DNA of 64,000 nt from Amphirosellinia nigrospora (taxonomy: Eukaryota; Ascomycota; Sordariomycetes; Xylariales; Xylariaceae): NCBI GenBank assembly GCA_004123355.1, contig SCHM01000003.1, positions 6,777,058-6,841,057 on the forward strand, given 5' to 3'. A program made the position numbers and the translations under genes. Below, in pieces: positions 14,651 to 56,816 of this stretch. The notes below the pieces were generated by a model. The model saw only the letters and a list, made by a program, of their open reading frames with translations, searched no databases and had not been told where the DNA came from. Positions within the stretch are counted from its first letter, which is position 1, and each line of letters begins with the position of its first letter.

Positions 14651-16595
14651 ATGGGCCTCGATATTTACTGGATCGGACTGCTAGTCCTCACACCTCTCGT
14701 CGCGATCGTGGCAGGGTACAAGACTATCATATCATGGGCTCAAAGAACGCCCACGGAGAAGCGGGAGCTTAATCCCCTCGAAGATGATGCTAAGGAGTTT
14801 CAACGGACCTTCTTGCGGGTTGTGAGTAATCTCGGAGTTATTTTCTTGTTGTTGTGGTGGCCTGGGTTTCCCTCATCGGTCCAGGGCAACGCTTACAACA
14901 TTTCGAAACCCACGTTTGAAATGGCGACAACTGACCCAGAGCACTCTACAGTACCTCTTAGTGATAGGGTCCGAATGGCTGCAGAACCCGTTCATGTACT
15001 CGCTCTTCCGGAACGAGAAGACGCTCGACGAGGGACGGTGTCGACGCTGTACATCAGCACATACACAGCAGCGGCCGTGTCGGCCCTCTTCACGGGGTAC
15101 CTGACCGACAGATTCGGGCGACGGCGCGCGTGTCTGGTCTTCTGCGGCATCCACTCGCTCGCCGCCGTGTCTGTGTGCTTCGACGCGCTTCCTATCCTGA
15201 TCATAGGGAGGGTCCTGGGCGGCGTCGCGCTTACCCTGCTCTGGACTGCCTTCGAGAGCTGGATGATCGCCGAGTACAATGAGCGCGGGTTCGCGCACGG
15301 CTCGGGGCTCTCGCTCACTTCTATGTTCGGCGTCATGACCACGTCCAAGTGCATCACGGCTATCGTCGCCGGCGTGTTGGGGCATTGTGTTGTTTTGGCG
15401 CTGGGGTCGAAGATTCACCCTTTTATACTGAGTGGGGTAAGGGCTTTCCCGAGACGGGCATGAGAAGAGGGGAAATAATCATTACTCGTCGGTGTTATGA
15501 TACTAATACATGCTATCCAGGCTCTAGACTTGTGCGCTGCTATCCTGATGATTCACACATGGAAAGAGAACTTCGGGCTCAACTCGACGGTCGATATAGA
15601 TAGGAACGACGACAAGGCAGCCGAGGCACAGGCATCGCCATCGCCAGACCAGGCGAGGACGTCGCTGTGGGATCCGCGACTATGGGCCATGAGCTTCGTG
15701 ACGTGTTGTTTCGAGGGCACCATCTTCCTCTTCATGTTCTTCTGGCCCGAGACACTCCAGGACGCTCATGATAGGGCACACCCAGGGGTGTCGGAACGAT
15801 CCCACACGGCGTCATCTTCGCCTCGTTCATGGCGATAATGGTCATCGGCGCGCTGTCCTTTAATATGATGGCCGCGGACCCTAGTAGCGGTCACCATGGG
15901 CCGTCAATAAGGCATACCTTAACTCCAACGCTGCTCCTCAAGGGAGCCTTATTCGCCAGCTCCATCTGCTTTTTTGCTGCAGCGTTCTTCAGAGAAGAGA
16001 TAGCGCTGTTCATCTCATTCCTGCTGTTGGAGATCTGCAATGGCGTCTACGTGCCCAGTGTCGCGTGTCACCGTGGCACGATCGTCACCGATGAGGCGAG
16101 GGCTCGCGTGTACAGCCTCATGAACATCCCCCTATTCGTGTTCGTCGTCGTCGCGCTCCGGACAGCGAATGGTAGTGGTGGTGAGTCTATATTCTCTAAT
16201 GACTTATGGAATAGTGCATATGGATGCTAATTGGGTATATAGATACAGGAGGGCGCTGGCAATTTGTTTTCCTGTTTGTGAGTAGCTTTCTTGTCTACCC
16301 GTCCTAAACTTTTGGAGCACCAAATTCCTACTCAGGATTAAGATCTTGCCTAGAAGCTTTGGAACCTCCTTACCAGAAGCCACCAATAACTAACTTCTAA
16401 CTATCTCAGTGCGCGGTATTGCTCCTTGTTGCAGTGTTGGTGGCAGCCATGTATCTTTCTGTCGATAACAAGAGCCCGGAAGGATTCTTGGAGATACCCA
16501 GCCAAGACTTGGCGAGCATTGATGTAACCACACACTTCCCGTCCGAAGGGGAGGCAGGGGCGGAATTAGATCCGGGCATAGGAGAATATGTTTGA
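14651..16595 (+). CDS. MFS transporter of the molybdate-anion transporter family (MFSD5/MOT2-like)
   Basis: A multi-pass membrane protein of the MFS_MOT1 type, expected to carry molybdate or a related oxyanion. I place exons at 14651-14821, 14952-15436, 15521-16180, 16243-16277 and 16410-16595, all with GT-AG borders. The N-terminal helix starts MGLDIYWIGLLVL. The family signature NPFMYSLFRNEKTLDEG follows, then the loop GYLTDRFGRRRA, the segment GGVALTLLWTAFESWM and the cytosolic loop before SLWDPRLWAMSF. The second half has EGTIFLFMFFWPE, FASFMAIMVIGALSF and LLEICNGVYVPS. Frame breaks lie near 15045 (GAGGG, a G apparently missing) and near 15800. A fungal MFSD5-like function in molybdate uptake is established for algal relatives, so the substrate here is inference. 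Confidence 0.9.
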
Positions 16596-34735: not shown

Positions 34736-35563
34736 ATGTCGTCCAAGAAATCCTCATCCAGTAGAACCTCAAGGCAGTCACATAGATCAACTCTATCTTT
34801 AACAAGGACCGAAATTGTCATCAATGTTTACGATCTTCTTCCCGTGTGTCACTCTTCCAGATCACATGGTTATTGACCATATTCTAACAAGCCGTGCATC
34901 TTTTAGCCAGGCCGCCTATCCTCTGTTCTATGGACTGTCGGCACCTCTCTCCTCCACTCCGGCGTCGTCATCAACGGCAAGGAATACGCATATGGAGGAC
35001 ATGAAAGGCAGGGCGTAACGGGCGTGTATTGGACCCAGCCCAAGACCGAACCACCTGGTGGCACGTTTCGAACCGAGATACTACAAGGCGTCACATTCGC
35101 GACTCAGGCCGAGATCGATTCCATCATCCAGCGGGCCTCGGCTGAATACGACGGGTCCGCCTACAACATCCTCACCCAGAACTGCAATCACTTCACTGGC
35201 TATCTGTGCCAAAAGCTAACGGGGCGGCCTGGCCCGGGCTGGCTGAACCGCGCCGCGAGCATCGGCGTCGCATTTCCTTGCGTCGTCCCCCGCGATTGGA
35301 TCGAACCGCCGGATTACGAAACAGCCGAGGGCGAGCTGCTGGGGGATGATAGCGACACTGATGCCCATGAGGGCTCGAGCATGCTAAGGTCCGAACACCG
35401 GAGAACCTTAGCGACGTCGTCACTTAACCATGACGACGACTCTGACTCTGATCAGGAGTATCGGCGCAGCAACAGGTCTAAGGGGAAGCAGAGGAACACG
35501 TTCCGGGACTCCAGTGGCCGGCGCTTGCCTGCTGCCGAGAGAGCCCCTACCTCTGGCCGGTGA
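34736..35563 (+). CDS. PPPDE (DeSI-type) deubiquitinase/desumoylase-like cysteine isopeptidase
   Basis: A papain-like thiol isopeptidase expected to remove SUMO or ubiquitin from proteins. Exon 1 is 34736-34843 and exon 2 is 34907-35563, with a 63 bp intron (donor GTGTGT, acceptor TTTTAG), giving 254 residues with no frame break. The PPPDE fold begins INVYDLLPPGRLSSVLWTVG. The catalytic His lies in SLLHSGVVINGKEYAYGG and the catalytic Cys in TQNCNHFTGYLC. The substrate-binding GVTFATQAEIDSII segment lies between them. The domain ends near PRDWIEPP. A C-terminal tail rich in Asp, Ser and Arg (NHDDDSDSDQEYRRSNRSKGK) follows and is probably disordered. The Ser-rich leader before the domain is also disordered. 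Confidence 0.95.
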
Positions 35564-35928: not shown

Positions 35929-36627
35929 CTAGCCCAATCTCCTGGGCCTGGGACTCCTTGTGCCACCAAATTTCAACCTCGTGGCGTCTGATACCTTCTT
36001 GATATAAGGTCGCAGCAGACGTCCCTCGTTACCCAGCAGCACCTTGGTAGCAGCCTCACGGCCAGGGCCGAAGCCGCGGAGCACAACCTCGAGGGATTTG
36101 ATCTTGCGGTGCCAGCCGCCCTGGTTTAGCTTGTCTAGGACGTGGGCGCAGAGCTGGTAGGCAGCATCGTAGGTGCCGCGCTTCGTCTTCTTGAAGCCAA
36201 TATTGCCGGCGGATAGGGAGACGATGGCGTTCCGGTTTGGTTTTGTAACGGTAATGTGGGTGTTGTGCTTGTGCGCGTAGATGTGGAAGTGGAACGGTTC
36301 GTGATCGGGGCCCCAGTCCTCCTTGGGATCTTCTGACTCGTCGAGGATAGAGTCGCCGCTCGGCTCGCCCATCGCCCGTGAAATGGTGTTGGTCGCTAAC
36401 ACCTGTTGGATATCTGCCATGCCACTTCGACGGGGCGGCTGGCTCTGCGGCGATACACTGGCTGATAATCTGCTGAGAAGCGAGGGCCTCGAGGTCGGCG
36501 GCTGTTCATCTTGCTGCCGTAAACATGTCTGCGAGAAAGCCCGTATGGATTGTTGACTGGGGCGAATAGAGAGGGAGGAAAGCTTGGAGGTCGTCTTCGC
36601 CAGTAGGCGACTTGTCGATGGGGTCAT
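35929..36627 (-). CDS. mrps18: mitochondrial small-subunit ribosomal protein uS11m
   Basis: A component of the mitochondrial 37S ribosomal subunit, located at the platform next to the mRNA exit. A single intact exon encodes 232 residues. The N-terminus (MTPSTSRLLAKTTSKLSSLS) is Ser/Thr/Lys/Arg-rich without acids, a typical matrix-targeting presequence. A linker follows, then the S11 domain from HFHIYAHKHNTHITVTKP through VSLSAGNIGFKKTKRGTYD and EVVLRGFGPGREAATKVLL. The end is the basic tail TRSPRPRRLG. The length is usual for fungal orthologues and there is no frame break. Confidence 0.96.
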   Translation of the reverse strand: MTPSTSRLLAKTTSKLSSLSIRPSQQSIRAFSQTCLRQQDEQPPTSRPSLLSRLSASVSPQSQPPRRSGMADIQQVLATNTISRAMGEPSGDSILDESEDPKEDWGPDHEPFHFHIYAHKHNTHITVTKPNRNAIVSLSAGNIGFKKTKRGTYDAAYQLCAHVLDKLNQGGWHRKIKSLEVVLRGFGPGREAATKVLLGNEGRLLRPYIKKVSDATRLKFGGTRSPRPRRLG

Positions 36628-37003
36628 CTTCGAAGCATCGACGTCAGGGCACGAATAAATGGTCGTTCGTCTCGTAAAGAAGATAACCAGTTTGCCAGGA
36701 CACTAAAAAATTTGGTAGCGATCCAACTCCGCCCAAATTTACTGCAGTAGGTATCTGAACGCAGTCGTCACGACGAAGCAGCACGACCCTGCCTGTCAAT
36801 CAATTGATGTTCATGAGCTGGAAATTTTGGCCAAGCCAGAATTGGCTAACTGCATGCGGTTCCATTAGACTTGATTGCCAATTGCATACCTAGGTAGTTG
36901 CATATATAGGGATATACCTTTTATTCTCAATGCCAAGAAATCTTGAGAGGTCGTCGGCATTCTAGCGGTATCCAATCCATACGGACAAAGAGGACAAAAG
37001 TCG

Positions 37004-37506: not shown

Positions 37507-39134
37507 ATGAGCTCTCTACGACATGTCTCTCGGAGCACAACTCCGCTTCGATCGCAAGGACGCCTTCGCTGGCTGTCCATTTATACGAAGAGCGCCGGCT
37601 TATAGGAGGCTAATATCTAGCACACCCGCCTCCGTTCGTCGCCATACTCCTCTCTCCGCCAATCCCATCCCTCTCCTCCGACCCCTTCCTCCAGAAACTG
37701 TAGCCGCGATACAATCACGCAGCTTCTACGGGTCACCATCATGGCTCCAAGAACAGCCTACCCGATCCGAGAAGGCATCCAAACTTCAAGAAAACTCAGA
37801 GAAGAGTGCTTCTAGTCCCGATTCAGAGGCAGAGGCCAAGACGGAATCTGAAGAGCAGAAAAAGCAACAAGAGGATGCGGATTCTAGCGAGGGCAAGAAG
37901 GAAGAGAAAAGGAGGATGCCGCACCACCTCCACCCCACGGCGACAAGACCCCGTGGCAGGTGTTCATGGAAACGATGCAATCTGAATTCAAGGCTTCGAA
38001 AGACTGGAACGAGTCGACAAAGCAGCTGTCTGACTCGGCCCACCAGTTCACCGAGAGCGAATCTGTTCGACGGGCCAGGCAGGCCTACGAGTCCACGACC
38101 GTGCCGTCTCATCGACAGCTGGGAAGGTACTCAAGACTCCGCTGATGCTGTTGGAAAGGGTGCAGCCTGGACCTGGATACCCACGTTATGAAAGGTGTGC
38201 GAAAGGGTGCCAACACGGAGAAGCCCTTGACAAGGCACTAAGCCGATCCGTGACACCGAGGCCTACAAGAGCGTGAAAGATGTCATAGATGATGGCAGCA
38301 GCTCACGGTATGTGGCTGGTTGAGAAGGAAGAGCGGAGGAAAGCGCGTGAGCTTCGCCAAAAGAAAGCTGCCGCATCACGGGAAGATAGAAGATATCGTC
38401 GAGGATCCAAGTACGTATATGACTATGATTCGGTTCCCCTTGTTGCCTCTAATAACACCCTTCAGCGCTGGAACCAACATTACTGTACACAAGGACGCCG
38501 CTTGGAAAGAAGCTGGCGGGACTTCCGGATAAAAACAAAGTGGTTCAGGGTGTATTCAACATGAAGAACGTTTACAGAATCAGAAAACCCCCTAATCTCC
38601 ACGGCACGAAGCATCTGACCGATTAGCCGGGTTCTTCGCTGAGAACGAGACGCTATGGTGATCAAAAAGATCAGAGAAATGAACCCCAACTTCCAAATCG
38701 AACCCTTTCAACAGGAACTACGCGATTATATCTTGCCCGAAGTTCTTGATGCTTATGTCAAGGGTGATACCGAAACTCTCAAGTTATGGCTCTCAGCCGC
38801 CCAATATTCCGTCTATGAAGCTCTAACTAAACAATACCTACAAGCCGGTATGAAGTCAGACGGACGCATTCTAGATATCAGACATGTGGATATTTGGAAG
38901 GCTCGTATGCTTGATCCCGGCGAGATCCCCGTGTTCATTATTACCTGCCGTACTCAAGAAGTGCACGTATACCGCAATGCGAAGACGAGCGAGCTCGCTG
39001 CCGGCATGGAAGACCGCGTTCAACTCGTTACCTACGTCATCGGCATCACTCGCATTCCCGAAGACGTCAACAACCCTGAGACCAGGGGGTGGAGGTTGCT
39101 TGACATGCAGAAGAGCGGCAGGGATTACATATAA
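37507..39134 (+). CDS. tim44: mitochondrial import inner-membrane translocase subunit Tim44
   Basis: Tim44 is a matrix-side scaffold that tethers mtHsp70 to the TIM23 channel. The presequence starts MSSLRHVSRSTTPLRSQ (Arg/Ser-rich, no acids). Next come SFYGSPSWLQEQ, a charged coiled-coil stretch (SEKASKLQENSEK), and TPWQVFMETMQSEFKASKDWNES. After an intron near 38412-38465 come AGTNITVHKDAAWKEA and the lipid-binding C-terminal domain, which is intact from MVIKKIREMNPNFQIEPFQQ to QKSGRDYI. The C-terminal domain contains DGRILDIRHVDIWKARMLDPG. Between the presequence and 38650 the reading changes frame at least eight times. The C-terminal 160 residues are clean. Confidence 0.94.
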
Positions 39135-39646: not shown

Positions 39647-40467
39647 TTACGCTCCCTCACCACTCTCAACCCTCGCCGCCTCAGCCTCCTTCCGAAACTC
39701 CTCGCGCACCTCCATGAGACATTTGCCGAGGAGATTCATACCCCACTTATCACGTCTACCCTCGGCGCCCTTGGCTGCGAAGCCGACGCCCCAGATACGA
39801 TCGAACGGACTCGCCTCGACAAGCTCACGGGATCCCGTGGCGAGGAGGACGTCGCGGAAGCTGGCGGCGCGCATCACCTTTGCGTCTTCGTGGTCTCCGA
39901 GGGCCCAGTCCCTTTCTACCTCTCCGTCTTTCTCCCCTTCTTTATCTTCAGCCGCCTCTCCCGCGTTATTTTCCTCCTTGCCCTTACCCTCAACCTTCTT
40001 CTCTTTCGCGGCGTCGTCGGCATCATCCTCGAAGAGGACGACGGGCAAGCTAAACTTGCACCAGCTCCCCTCGGTCACGATCCTCGCGCGCTCGCGCTCC
40101 CAGACGGCCTGGTCGAACCCGCGGACCTGGCGCCCGAGGTCCTTGACCTGCTTCGCGGCCGTCCCGGGCGCCTCGAGGATGGCGGCCGCGATCTCGGCGT
40201 CGCCGAAGAGGAGCGCCTTGTGGTGCATCATGTAGTGCTCCGCCGTCGCGTATACTTTTTCTGAGCCCCCCGGCGCCCGGTCCCGGAAGGGGTGGGACGC
40301 GTACCACTGGGACAGGAACCCGTCTCTGGCTCCTTGGGTCGCCAGAAGAAGACGGGTTTGTTGTTGTTTGCGGGGTTGGGGAGGAGGGCTGCGGAGGAGG
40401 AGGATGGCGGTGAGGCTTTGCTCTTGTTGCTCACTCTTTTGCTGACGCGGTTGCGGTTGGATGGCAT
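39647..40467 (-). CDS. NADAR-domain N-glycosidase (YbiA/DUF1768 family)
   Basis: NADAR proteins hydrolyse N-glycosidic bonds. Bacterial YbiA-type members remove reactive riboflavin-pathway intermediates, and others act on ADP-ribosyl adducts. After a basic Ser-rich leader (MPSNRNRVSKRVSNKSK) the domain reads VFFWRPKEPETG, then, one frame over, LSQWYASHPF. TAEHYMMHHKALLFGD, RELVEASPFDRIWGVGF and WGMNLLGKCLMEVREEF follow, covering the conserved active-site blocks. A Lys/Glu-rich insertion (KEKKVEGKGKEENNAGE) splits the middle of the domain, longer than in bacterial proteins. One T appears to be missing near 40317, the single frame break. The start at 40467 is the first Met in the frame of the leader. 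Confidence 0.9.
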
Positions 40468-41576
40468 TGTGTTGATGTGCTCGTATTGATTACTTTCCTT
40501 GCCAGGCAGATGGTTAGGAAGCACGATTGAGATATCCAAAGTTGTATTCAAAATGTTCTTTCTTTTCCGACGTTAGTTTTTAGGGACTATTTACTCTATT
40601 TATCAGTTTCTTGTTGTGTTGAAATAGCCATGTCCAGTCATGTCAGGCTGAAGCTGAATGCCGGTTGACTCATAGCGGTTAGCGGGTGATGCGGTCTCAG
40701 CACAGCTCAGCCCCGAATGTAGGCAGACTGCGATGTGTAGCTTGCTCGATCGCATGAACTCAGATTTATTGATACAAAATTCGGTAATGTTTTCATCATA
40801 GGTAGTCTTTGTGTACCGCATACGCGACATGCTGTGATTCGGTGGGTATAGAGTTGTACTCCGTTGTTCGGTACGACCACACGGGGAGGGCGGGGCAATC
40901 CCCAGATCGCACAGGAGCATTCGAAGAGAGAGTTTCGTTTAAAGTAAAATGATAGTCACACGTTAAATCGTTGTGCAATGTGCGGTGCTCATTGTTCATC
41001 TTACGTTTTGTGTATTCCCATCCTTTTAATACGAAACCTACCTACAATAGCATATCCCATCAACACGGCGAACAGTCGGACCAACCTCCCGGGCCAGGAC
41101 GGACCCGCCCCGTATCTTGACAACGGCCGTTAGTCTATAACTGCCGATCGTCATGACATGATCGTTATCGACGCGAGACAAAAAATTTTTTTGTTGTCTC
41201 CTACTCGACATATAAAAATGTGGGGAGTGGGTTAGATATGGGTGAGAATGGCAGCAAGGGATGGATTTCGTGATACCCAGTACCAGACACACAGTCTGGG
41301 GTAGACTAGGGTGTAACAAGTCAGGTTCGATGCTTAACCGCGCTACGTTACCATCTATTCGCGGAGCTCATTACGAGATGTGATAGATTAACTATTGCCG
41401 AGATGAAATCTCCCCATCCGGTCTTCGAGCAGGCTCATAGCCGAGACTCGTGTCACCGACGCCAATCATTTATAAGTCATGGTTCAAGACATAAATATCA
41501 CTCTATATGAACCTTAGCACCTAGTAGTCGCTCGAAAAGCCCAACATCCTTCTTTGTATTCCCACTACTGGTAGAC
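40468..41576. other. divergent intergenic region
   Basis: About 1.1 kb between the divergent NADAR and Cys/His-module genes. Small open frames on both strands have no family likeness. No gene is supported. Confidence 0.5.
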
Positions 41577-42608
41577 ATGGGCCATGGTAACAGTGTGTCC
41601 ATTGACCATCCGCAATCCTACAAGTTCTACCAGATCCTATCATCATGTTGGAGATGGCCTTGGAAAAGGGAGCATTCATCCGTTTTAACTCGACCTGCTG
41701 CTAGCGGTAGCAGCTATTCCGCGCCTATCAACAAACGTCTGAGACATAAGCGGTCCACGATATTTCACCCCCAATACTCCGAAAAACAGCCCATGTACGG
41801 ACGAGATGTCCGCGCTCGCGTCAATGACCCCAGAGATCGAAAGGCGCGCATCGAAACTCCCCAGTGCGAAGTAGGATACTGCTATCGCAGACGACTCCCG
41901 GGCACCACGTACTGCAAATCACATATCTGCCGCACAACCCAGTGTGCCGAAGTGCGAGCCATAGGCTCCCTGCACTGCGCCGCCCACAAGTGCCGCTCCT
42001 GCAACATCAAGGCGAAGACGAGGAACAGCTACTGCGAGGCGCACCAATGCCGCATCCCGTCCTGCCTCCGCGGGAAGAAGTCGGGCCAGGACTGGTGCAG
42101 GCGGCACGTGTGCCGCTGGGACGACGACTGCGGCGGGGCGCCCGTCAAGGGGGCCCGGTACTGCGACTACCACGCCTGCGCGGCCGAGGGCTGCGTGTTC
42201 AAGGTCCTCCTCGCCGGCGACTGGGTCGGCGATTACTGCTGCTGCCACACCTGTTCGGCGGAAGGGTGCCTGCGCGGCGCGGCGTCGACGGGGTCCTTTT
42301 GCGCAGACCACAAGTGTCTGATCCACGGGTGTCCGAACCCGAGACTCTGGGACGGCCACGAAGAGGAGGAGGAGGAGGAAGGGGGGTGTTGTAGGTTCCA
42401 CACCTGTGTGCAGAGGGGCTGTTTTGCTCCGACGGCGAGGGTCGGTGCGTTGTGCGAGCTACACGCGCGGTTATGTTACGGGCGGCAGAGCCCCAGGGTT
42501 TGTTACGCGACGGGCCAGGAACTGCGAAGGTGTGCCGGCGATCATCATCGTCGTCGTCATCGTCGTCGCCAGAACTTGAGAGCAGGGAATAGAGGGAGGA
42601 CCTCGTAA
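41577..42608 (+). CDS. tandem nine-module Cys/His protein with N-myristoylation signal, unknown function
   Basis: A single clean exon encodes 343 residues. The start MGHGNSVS fits the N-myristoylation signal (Gly2, Ser6), suggesting membrane attachment. Residues 1-95 are basic and probably disordered. Residues 97-300 form nine consecutive modules of the pattern C-x(2-4)-C-x(~9-23)-C-x2-H-x(1-3)-C, with the last Cys of one module usually opening the next. Examples are CKSHIC, CAAHKC, CEAHQC, CRRHVC, CDYHAC, CCCHTC, CADHKC and CRFHTC. A Glu-rich run (residues 262-268) lengthens the loop of module 8. The tail is Arg/His-rich. Each module supplies three Cys and one His, enough for a zinc site, so a string of small zinc knuckles is likely. 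I do not recognise a named family. The coding part is GC-rich and intact, unlike most neighbours. Confidence 0.85.
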   Translation: MGHGNSVSIDHPQSYKFYQILSSCWRWPWKREHSSVLTRPAASGSSYSAPINKRLRHKRSTIFHPQYSEKQPMYGRDVRARVNDPRDRKARIETPQCEVGYCYRRRLPGTTYCKSHICRTTQCAEVRAIGSLHCAAHKCRSCNIKAKTRNSYCEAHQCRIPSCLRGKKSGQDWCRRHVCRWDDDCGGAPVKGARYCDYHACAAEGCVFKVLLAGDWVGDYCCCHTCSAEGCLRGAASTGSFCADHKCLIHGCPNPRLWDGHEEEEEEEGGCCRFHTCVQRGCFAPTARVGALCELHARLCYGRQSPRVCYATGQELRRCAGDHHRRRHRRRQNLRAGNRGRTS

Positions 42609-43300
42609 GAGGTGACGTTGAGAGATGGGATTCCTTGGATCACGAAACTTTGCCGGTTGGTGCGCTCTGTAGCGTGATGTGATTTCATATATTACCTAAT
42701 TAATTCGATGGGAAGCCCTCATCCTCTGAGACGAGCTCTCTACCCGGAAGTTATTACCGCTTACGCGGCATGATGAAGATTATGTCTGCGACGGGGGGTG
42801 GTGTGCTAAGTTAGAAGGCTCGAGCGTGAGCATTATCACAAAGGAGGAGCAAGGATCGTCTTCGCATAGTGCTTGGTTTCCATCATCTAACAGTTGTCTT
42901 TCTTCGCTATGATAATCACTGGAAGTCTACCAAGTGGCTGCAACCGTAATAGTACACTTGCAAGGTTTATGTTTACAATTTGATCCAAGGCCCCTTATCC
43001 TCCTCATCAAACCAGAACACCGTGATGGTGGGCCTTACTACCGGTTATAAAATAAACTTCAAGGTCGAGCCTGAAATTCTAGGGTCAAACCTACCAATTG
43101 GTGTGAACATCTGCAGCCCGCGTGGCTATTAAGTAAACAGTAATCCTCAACATAAAGCCAACCACGCCAAATTACATACTAGGGGCCTACCCCCGTATTA
43201 CATCCATTTCCCATCGACATATTCTTCATCCTCTTCAGTCTCGGACAAATAGGGAGACCAAATAGATTATAGCAACAGTCACAAACTTATCACTACCAAA
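42609..43300. other. intergenic region upstream of the secreted protein
   Basis: No gene is supported. The last 50 bases before 43301 form an A/C-rich leader ending in the context ccaaaATG. Confidence 0.55.
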
Positions 43301-43784
43301 ATGAAATTCACCATATCAGTCATCGCCGTCATGGCGAGCATGCTGGCTGGCATCAACGCCTCTCCAGTCGCCACCAAAATCGTAAGCTTCACCATCTCCA
43401 CTCCTCCTCCCACACGCAAAACAAACAACATCCTCCTCACCATGACCTGACAATTCCACTAACGCAAACATCTAGTCCACCACCGTCATCATGGAACGCG
43501 CGGCGGCCGCCAGCGATACCCCTCACAGTCCACTCATGTTCCCGGCCATCACGAGCGACGTGATAGTCGTCGAAGACCCAGAAACCGCCCTCGGCGATCA
43601 CAAGCACAAGGACAAGGACGGCAAGAACAACGAATGCCAGTTCAAGGATTGCAAGGCCTGCGTCCACCGCTGCGGTGAGGTGAAGGGCTTCTCGTGCATC
43701 TACTGGGAGTGCATGTCGACCGTGTGCAAGAATTGTAATCTTGCCATCGTCCCCGGTCCGTCCACGAACCCTCATGACCCCTAA
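43301..43784 (+). CDS. small cysteine-rich secreted protein, effector-like
   Basis: Exon 1 (43301-43381) encodes a classic signal peptide, MKFTISVIAVMASMLAGINA, with cleavage expected before SPV. A GTAAGC-TCTAG intron (43382-43475) with a CTAAC branch point follows, then exon 2 (43476-43784). The product has 129 residues, about 109 after cleavage. The mature part has a disordered first half, a Lys/Asp/His-rich patch (GDHKHKDKDGKNN) and eight cysteines packed within about 36 residues near the C-terminus (ECQFKDCKACVHRCG, then four more), enough for four disulfides. Small size, signal peptide and clustered Cys are the usual marks of fungal effectors or antimicrobial proteins. No family was recognised and no function is shown. 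Confidence 0.78.
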
Positions 43785-54504: not shown

Positions 54505-56816
54505 TTACTCATCCACCGCCACCGGCCCAAACCAGCTCCCGAAATCAAGCTTCATCAGCAGGCGATCGATACCACCCACGCGGCGCGGTCTGTACTTGCC
54601 CGCCCCGTCATCCCCGTCCACCTCATGCGCCACCTCCTCCGCCTCTTCCTGTTCCTCCTCGCCCTCCATCTCGGCCGCGAAGTCGGAGGAGAGGCTGAGC
54701 GTGCGCAGCGCGGCGATGACGTCCTCGATGCCGAACTTGACGCGCCGCTCGACGCCGCGCAGCTGCGCGCGCACGTCGCGCTCCTCGGCGTCGAGGTTCG
54801 AGAAGGCGTCGACGACGCCCTCGTCGGCCTCGAGGTCGACGGACACCCAGACGCCGTGCAGCCGGTGCACGAGCGCGACGAGCTGGTCGATCTGCATCAG
54901 GAGGTCGTGGAGCGGTGCCGAGAAGGTCGGCTGCGTCAGGAGGAGGCGGCGCGTGAGTGCGCTGAGGTACTGCCGGTGGGCTGTGCTTAAGGTCTGCGGT
55001 CGTGGTTTGGATGGGGGGAATCTGCTTCGTGCGTGGCGGCGGGTGATCCTGGTCCTTCCGTGGTTACTGGTACTATGGTTTCTGCTGGGGAATGCTCCCC
55101 CTGCGATGTTTGGGGACGGCTGTGTTCCCCTCGCGCCGGCTCGCTGGTGCCGGTCACCCAGTCGTGGAAGTGAGACCACAGACCCTCCACGACCTCTACT
55201 TGCAGATATGCCTCTGTTTCCCCGAAGAAGAATATGGCCGCGCTGCTCGTGCTCCAGGTACTGCGCATGATGGAGGAGCGGAGCGACCAGCGCTCGCGAA
55301 GCAGCTTGGTCTTGGCGATGCCGCCCTTGGTGTTGCCGTAGGGAGCCCTGGGCGGCGGCGGGTGGTGGCGACGGAGGGAGGTGATCTTCCAGAGGTCTGT
55401 GAGGCGGAGGTGGGCGCGTCGGATGGAGAGGAGGTAGGAATTGATGGCCGTGTAGATCTGGAGGTCGGAATATGTGAGGAAGAGGTCGAGAGGGGATTGT
55501 ATCTGCATCGTCAGCGTGACGGGCACGGAGAAGAGGAGGTTGCGAAAGGGTGTTGGCACGATGGCGTCGAGGATCTTATCGCCGGCGCGGTCGGAACCTT
55601 TAGCGGGCGTCGCGGCTTCCGTAGATTTGGACACATGCAACAGCAGTAGATCCCTGGCGAGCTCGAGAGATTCGTCCTCGTCGGCGTGCTCGCTCTGCAT
55701 GGAGGCTAGGAAGGCCCAGGTTCGGGCCAGGGCGGCGGCTACCTCGCCTTCCTTCACGACAATCGTGCCTAGAGTGTCTCTTTTCTCGTAGGCGAGATTG
55801 TCTGCCCGTCGCCAGCGGCCGCGGATCTTCTCGTCCGCTTGCTGCGTGAGAGCTATAGCGAACTCGCCACGGCCAATCAAGAAAAACTCTCTGAGAACCT
55901 TGAGTATCTCTAGCACCCTCGCCAAGGGCAGCAGCTTCTGTAGAGTGGTTCTAGATAATGTGTATCGAATGCTTGTGATAGTCCGTGAGAAAATGACGCT
56001 GTTAAGAGGTGATGACAACCGCGCCAGTTCCTGGTGTTGCGAAGCGAGTTGATTGAGTCCGCTGGCACCTATATCTGCACCGGTCCTTGAGCGAGCTCTA
56101 TTTATCGAGACGCCAATAAACAGCATGGATTCCGCTGTCGAGGGTGTGACGAATGATGGTAGTAAGTCATAGTCGATCCTATACCCGTGCTCCTCTTCCT
56201 TGTCCTCACATATAAAGAAATCGTAACCGCCTACCTTTGGTCTGCGTCCGTATAGAACCCAGGCAGCGACCTGCTTTAACCAAGATGTTTCGGCGACCCG
56301 AAGCAGCTTTGGGCGGTCTCGGCAACATCGGCATAGCCAGTCTGCAACTCATCATCCGCAGTTTATCGATGAGCTTCGCTGCCGGCAAGGTGACTTGCCC
56401 TCCTTGAGTTCGTCGGCGGTCATGAACTTGACCAGCTCCAGAGCCATTCCAGACGCCGAGTCCAACCGGAGAACTGGCCGACGACGGCAGTCAGGGGCAC
56501 GATGTTATAAGCGCCGACCAAGGCCGCGTCTTTGCGGAGGATGCTGTCCTCCACCTCGAGGATTTTGCGCTGGAATGCGCCTAGGTGGATGGCCACGACG
56601 GCGGAGGAGACGGCGCGGCATATGGCCGAAGGATGGCGCCACTGATGAGAGTAGTCTGCTCTTTCAGCAGGCAGTGAAGCTCGCTGAGATGTGCGGCCGT
56701 GTCTAGGAGCTGCCTCTCTGGCGGCGATATGAGGGACGATGCGGCGGATCGGAATAGTCATTCCGGAGTAGAGGTGACGGGTGTCCCGAGAGCGAGAGTA
56801 AGATTTCATGGAGCAT
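54505..56816 (-). CDS. gamma-tubulin complex component 4 (GCP4, Spc97/Spc98 family)
   Basis: GCP4 is a subunit of the gamma-tubulin ring complex that nucleates microtubules at spindle pole bodies. The start MLHEILLSLSGHPSPL at 56816 is the family's hallmark N-terminus. Then come LLDTAAHLSELHCLLKEQT, LGAFQRKILEVEDSIL, VPLTAVVGQF, AETSWLKQVAAWVLYGRRP and GGYDFFICEDKEEEHGY, the GRIP1 part. The GRIP2 part follows: LEILKVLREFFLIGRGEFAIAL, IRGRWRRADNLAYEKRD, LFSVPVTLTMQIQSPLDLFL and DLQIYTAINSYLLSIRRAH. The last conserved block is QYLSALTRRLLLTQPTFSAPL. The gene ends GSWFGPVAVDE before the stop at 54505. Frame breaks lie in the N-terminal 150 codons, near 56340, and at about 55010. The region from 56126 to about 55000 is continuously open. 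Confidence 0.92.

Follow-up and report, generated by a model that had tools for sequence, protein, structure and literature searches.

The nine-module reading frame and its relatives

We analyzed a 64,000-nucleotide stretch of Amphirosellinia nigrospora contig SCHM01000003.1 (the window), in which an open reading frame (ORF) encodes a hypothetical protein, P0001, opening with MGHGNS. A module script run on P0001 identified, in residues 97-296, nine units of the form C-x(2-6)-C-x(6-30)-C-x2-H that do not overlap. The ORF and its modules are located as follows.

41577..42608, forward strand: nine-finger protein P0001, hypothetical (ORF, 343 amino acids)
41865..41924, forward strand: module 1, C-x4-C-x10-C-x2-H (script; zf-C3Hc3H E 7.3e-4 and WRC E 0.015, both below cut-off)
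41928..41987, forward strand: module 2, C-x4-C-x10-C-x2-H (script)
41991..42044, forward strand: module 3, C-x2-C-x10-C-x2-H (script; TRM13-type finger E 0.015, below cut-off)
42048..42107, forward strand: module 4, C-x4-C-x10-C-x2-H (script)
42111..42173, forward strand: module 5, C-x5-C-x10-C-x2-H (script)
42177..42248, forward strand: module 6, C-x4-C-x14-C-x2-H (script)
42252..42311, forward strand: module 7, C-x4-C-x10-C-x2-H (script; Zf_WRKY19 E 0.0038, below cut-off)
42315..42401, forward strand: module 8, C-x4-C-x19-C-x2-H, second spacer variable among relatives (script, alignment)
42405..42464, forward strand: module 9, C-x4-C-x10-C-x2-H, without a Cys two residues past its His (script)

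Whole-protein shuffling (5000 shuffles) yielded at most 4 modules, with a mean of 0.87, compared with the 9 found in the real protein. These results confirm the original prediction, made from the letters of the window, of nine successive Cys/His modules in this ORF. The observed form is C-x(2-5)-C-x(10-19)-C-x2-H, in which the final spacer is always 2. Five of the nine modules have the spacing C-x4-C-x10-C-x2-H and the remaining four differ from it by a single spacer (in order: 4,10 / 4,10 / 2,10 / 4,10 / 5,10 / 4,14 / 4,10 / 4,19 / 4,10), and the units are separated by linkers of one residue. The array contains 36 ligand positions within 200 residues, and 34 cysteines were counted in the protein. 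Because module 9 is complete although no Cys stands two residues past its His, each unit has four ligands of its own (C, C, C, H), so that the 36 ligands make nine full sets; the boundary cysteine described earlier as shared between modules is a matter of parsing, and no Cys need be shared. The G+C content at third codon positions was 0.83 in the array slice versus 0.54 in the first 288 bases, a contrast that agrees with coding sequence. Searches of the genome (48 Mb, 11 contigs) with the query protein, P0014, and P0020 (E 0.076 for P0020) found this locus only.

Protein searches identified 20 homologues (P0002-P0021), including 16 with Xylariomycetidae names, two without an organism name (P0004 and P0010), and two weak matches from Diaporthales (Diaporthe, E 1.3e-9; Cytospora, E 3.9e-5). 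The closest was from Xylaria acuta, with 65% identity. Since these searches required shared five-residue words and similar length, a wider distribution is possible; three species were checked in the taxonomy, and the other homologues were placed by their given names.

When P0001 was aligned with 15 homologues and gap cells were excluded, ligand cells were kept in 525 of 526 cases versus 1121 of 2362 (47%) for the other array cells and 276 of 1304 for N-terminal cells, a ligand figure flattered by the fact that cysteines anchor the alignment and that P0014 and P0016 offer extra modules to align from. No aligned letter at the His position of any module departs from His. The residue preceding the third Cys was mostly aromatic (Y 37, F 20, L 15, W 11, and H 11 among the 101 modules of the 4/10 type in P0001-P0021). 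Among the 12 homologues in which nine modules were parsed, nine had one-residue linkers throughout, the exceptions being P0012 and P0013 (one linker parsed as 0 in each) and P0015 (one linker of 36). Module order and nearly the same spacing are common to P0001, P0002-P0007, and P0009-P0013, in which spacers shift by 1-2 residues and module 8 is variable; P0015 departs more, with an insert ahead of module 5. The module number differs from nine in P0014 and P0016-P0021, P0008 is partial, and the script counted about 6 to 18 modules across the family (P0008 being a fragment). Judged from these alignments, P0001 is a member of a Xylariales family for which we found no description. Additionally, the gene model of P0016 (Xylariomycetidae sp. 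FL0641) combines a 16-module array with a methyltransferase domain, reflecting either a fusion or an annotation error.

Ends of the reading frame and neighboring genes

The first residues of P0001 had been read as an N-myristoylation signal. P0001 has Ser at position 6 and His at position 3, where His is excluded by the PROSITE pattern PS00008. Five close relatives (P0003-P0007) have an ME start in the alignment column that holds the P0001 ATG, and the database model of P0002 begins 21 residues upstream, so that MG is internal there. Longer N-termini were found in P0011-P0016, which carry TPPPAY followed by one residue and then E or D, and P0017-P0019 carry SPPPPY. The PPxY motif T/S-P-P-P-A/P-Y occurs in the first 33 residues of nine of the 20 homologues (P0011-P0019), that is, in every homologue identified outside P0002-P0010 and the two Diaporthales. 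P0009 and P0010 have a longer N-terminus without PPxY, and the same columns hold APPPAN in P0010, TQPLAR in P0009, and TPSLAD in P0002.

The in-frame codons before the P0001 ATG read VFPLLVD-M, and their counterpart in P0002 is ITPSLAD-M. A tblastn search with the first 50 residues of P0002 aligned from 41556 through the ATG (E 4.9e-14), with most of the aligned length downstream of the ATG. Taken alone, the upstream codons are weak, since an equally close match to TPPPAY is seen for 3.9% of the 18-mers in the window.

41511..41576, forward strand: in-frame stretch before the ATG, its final 7 codons aligning with P0002 coding sequence and, in deeper relatives, with the position of TPPPAY (alignment, tblastn)

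This stretch is likely a remnant or continuation of the ancestral N-terminus. Because the upstream in-frame sequence aligns to P0002 coding sequence, the P0001 ATG looks like a formerly internal position; translation may still start at 41577, as a Met occupies that column in each of P0001-P0007. Together, His3 and the apparently formerly internal ATG leave a conserved lipid signal without support. Mean hydropathy over 19 residues peaked at 1.17 in P0001, inside the array, and at 1.42 over the query and the 20 homologues, so that the earlier placement of the chain on a membrane is not supported by a hydrophobic segment either.

At the 3' end, the tails of P0002, P0003, and P0004 matched 42596/42599-42679 in a frame other than that of the ORF.

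42599..42682, forward strand: counterpart of the relatives' C-terminal tail, out of frame with the ORF and ending in a stop (identity 57% to P0002, 48% to P0003, and 44% to P0004)

This result indicates that the natural end of the coding sequence probably lies elsewhere than at 42608, and the gene, previously described as intact, is not clearly so. Frame breaks were also found at a nearby TIM44 gene.

37523-39131: TIM44 gene, stretches in three frames with internal stops

The Tim44 domain itself lies at 38643-39131, and the remaining stretches, in three frames, are presumably also TIM44, as they read like this family. The TIM44 model matched this locus only in the genome, in two pieces, one of them with three TGA codons read through; introns may explain part of this disruption. 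Since yeast cannot do without TIM44, sequencing indels in the assembly would be the simplest cause of the frame breaks in this region. The neighboring S11-type and NADAR frames are open. Further genes identified in the window were as follows.

14651-15463: MFS transporter piece (MFS_5, E 7.8e-27)
34907-35563: frame with a PPPDE (Peptidase_C97) domain (E 8.6e-35)
35929-36702, reverse strand: open frame with a ribosomal protein S11 domain, probably mitochondrial
39647-40489, reverse strand: NADAR domain protein (E 2.3e-46)
43301-43784: protein in at least two pieces, small and rich in cysteine, with a hydrophobic, signal-like start
54987-56126, reverse strand: frame with a gamma-tubulin complex component C-terminal domain

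The longer of the two translated pieces of the 43301-43784 protein had no Pfam match, and no link was found between P0001 and this secreted-type neighbor, viewed as two translated pieces only.

Possible functions of the finger chain

The C3H chain in P0001 is well supported by the conservation of its ligands, in agreement with the earlier view that the Cys3His modules resemble zinc sites. Zinc binding, cellular location, and partner are inferred. In the reading that we tentatively prefer, P0001 would be a soluble, intracellular nine-finger zinc scaffold, whose likely partner would be nucleic acid or chromatin. The protein would then consist of nine independent C3H fingers, mostly C-x4-C-x10-C-x2-H, joined by one-residue linkers, in which each finger would hold one zinc through C, C, C, and H, and the chain would serve as a multivalent binding scaffold. 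The hydropathy (no 19-residue mean above 1.42), the kept ligands, and the loose kinship with C3H fingers point to an intracellular zinc-finger scaffold. Nucleic acid or chromatin would be its most likely partner because two of the C3H finger families with the nearest profiles bind DNA or may do so, namely WRC and, by its Pfam description, zf-C3Hc3H, and because of the names of viral nucleases with similar models (see below). The charge of P0001 is mild (27 K+R versus 22 D+E) and gives no help to nucleic-acid binding. In addition, the yeast Trm13 finger that a passage in PMC10608323 describes as a possible tRNA binder is a CHHC finger and not the CCCH finger matched here; we did not count it as support, and it slightly lowered our confidence in the scaffold.

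The main rival is a protein-protein adaptor, in which the array would recognize a protein and the N-terminal PPxY would recruit a WW-domain protein, such as an Rsp5-type ubiquitin ligase, with the PPxY arm lost or modified in the Xylaria-type members. It owes this rank to the motif near the N-terminus of nine homologues and gains from the sequences that P0002, P0009, and P0010 have at the same columns; moreover, in fungal ART adaptors it is PPxY motifs that the WW domains of Rsp5 bind, according to a passage in PMC8050425. Nevertheless, PPxY is missing from P0001 itself, from P0002-P0010, and from the two Diaporthales homologues, short motifs arise by chance, and the WW partner is putative; we regard the adaptor as rather unlikely. 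Extended to the whole family, this idea would describe an undescribed group of fungal adaptors, built as rods of about 6 to 18 C3H fingers with an N-terminal PPxY arm recruiting a ubiquitin ligase that carries WW domains. Its Xylaria-type members would have kept the rod but lost the arm, with the start codon thereby moved to a formerly internal Met; we consider this doubtful.

The density of 36 ligand positions per 200 residues could also suit a metallothionein-like protein for metal buffering or detoxification, but the mostly fixed spacing, the conserved module order, and the mostly aromatic residue before the third Cys suit folded fingers, and we regard this function as improbable. A secreted or wall-associated protein with disulfides instead of zinc, suggested by the 34 cysteines and by the signal-like hydrophobic start of the nearby gene at 43301, is very improbable, as P0001 lacks a hydrophobic N-terminal segment (its 19-residue maximum lies within the array) and the His kept in every module across the alignment suits metal ligands and not disulfides. 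Equally improbable is the myristoylated, membrane-tethered zinc chain first proposed, for which the literal MG start and Ser at position 6 speak, but which His3, the ME start of P0003-P0007, and the internal position of the Met column in the P0002 model and deeper relatives contradict.

Overall, the observation in the original prediction was partly confirmed and its interpretation partly supported. With near-invariant ligands, about 6 to 18 modules, and no Pfam finger cut-off reached by the members scanned, the family offers a natural set for studying how tandem zinc arrays lengthen and what they bind. It also provides a caution that an attractive N-terminal lipid motif in a single sequence can be an accident of the present start of the reading frame.

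Comparison with known fingers and viral proteins

The scaffold reading relies in part on likeness to named fingers. P0001 as a whole matched no family in Pfam or NCBIfam, and no finger family passed the Pfam cut-off in any whole family protein scanned, in line with the earlier statement that the modules fit no named zinc-finger class; the methyltransferase domains of P0016 did pass the Pfam cut-off. Ten array fragments searched against Pfam matched four C3H finger families, all below cut-off (zf-C3Hc3H, 7.3e-4; Zf_WRKY19, 0.0038; WRC, 0.015; TRM13, 0.015), and gave further weak matches to CxC6, CPL1-like, and Diedel (E 0.018 to 1.9); three of the ten had no Pfam match. Two fragments, namely those giving zf-C3Hc3H, Zf_WRKY19, and WRC, served as controls: five shuffles of each, made with the ligand positions fixed, matched none of the four C3H families, the TRM13 match being without such a control; one shuffle matched CMC4 (E 0.0039) and CPL1-like (0.029). 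A genome scan with zf-C3Hc3H up to E 10 picked out the P0001 gene alone, below the cut-off of 27 bits (16.8 bits, E 0.4, covering profile positions 6-61 of 62), and the gene was absent from the results of the scans with Zf_WRKY19, TRM13, and WRC.

Two further classes were excluded by spacing. The CCHC zinc knuckle has the spacing C-x2-C-x4-H-x4-C, which differs from the C-x(2-5)-C-x(10-19)-C-x2-H of P0001, and the label "zinc knuckle" given earlier does not apply. The spacing of the classical CCCH finger, C-x7-8-C-x5-C-x3-H, was not found either. The modules appear to be short C3H fingers in a loose sense, outside any single named family.

Among the named families, zf-C3Hc3H (PF13891), whose members include KANSL2/INO80D and which Pfam describes as a potential DNA-binding domain, resembles the array in being a multi-unit C3H domain. 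Module 1 corresponds to profile 6-25 (E 7.3e-4) and the fragment of modules 1-3 to profile 7-61, whereas the best score is 20.2 bits against a cut-off of 27, and the model has 62 positions against nine tandem units in P0001. Zf_WRKY19 (PF24906) is likewise a short finger, with module 7 spanning profile 4-22 of 24 (E 0.0038), but its best score is 17.5 bits against a cut-off of 27 and P0001 lacks its H-GGG linker. In zf-TRM13_CCCH (PF11722), profile half 14-28 covers a stretch ending in C-x2-H, with the best score in the partial homologue P0008 (18.6 bits), although both this score and that of P0001 (15.3 bits) fall below the cut-off of 20.9, and TRM13 has a single finger in a tRNA methyltransferase. 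The plant GRF domain WRC (PF08879) shares the second spacer of 10 and the C-x2-H end with P0001, but its first spacer is 9 and that of P0001 is 2-5 (mostly 4), and the score is 15.4 bits against a cut-off of 28.6; a passage in PMC7380329 describes WRC as a DNA-binding C3H domain with the motif CX9CX10CX2H.

The AlphaFold prediction of full P0001 (11 rows) was poor, with a mean predicted local distance difference test (pLDDT) score of 37.2. For residues 92-300 (17 rows), block means were 83-94 in modules 1-4, 68-83 in module 5, and low in most of modules 6-9, and the best model had a mean of 69.2 (43.6-65.9 in the four others). The predicted structure had no match of weight in the PDB, tblastn with P0014 gave no match in phages, and a scan of viral contigs with P0014 yielded no confirmed match. 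Foldseek against viral models (BFVD) gave three matches at E <=0.001: two uncharacterized Barrevirus (giant-virus) proteins, with query TM-scores of 0.32 and 0.12 and a best E of 3.8e-5, and a Gordonia phage Phistory protein named endonuclease VII (E 2.2e-4, query TM-score 0.22). These giant-virus and phage HNH/endonuclease VII proteins differ from P0001 in that the query TM-scores are low (0.12-0.32), and they are known by model match and name; chains of like modules may thus occur in viruses, sometimes beside nuclease domains.
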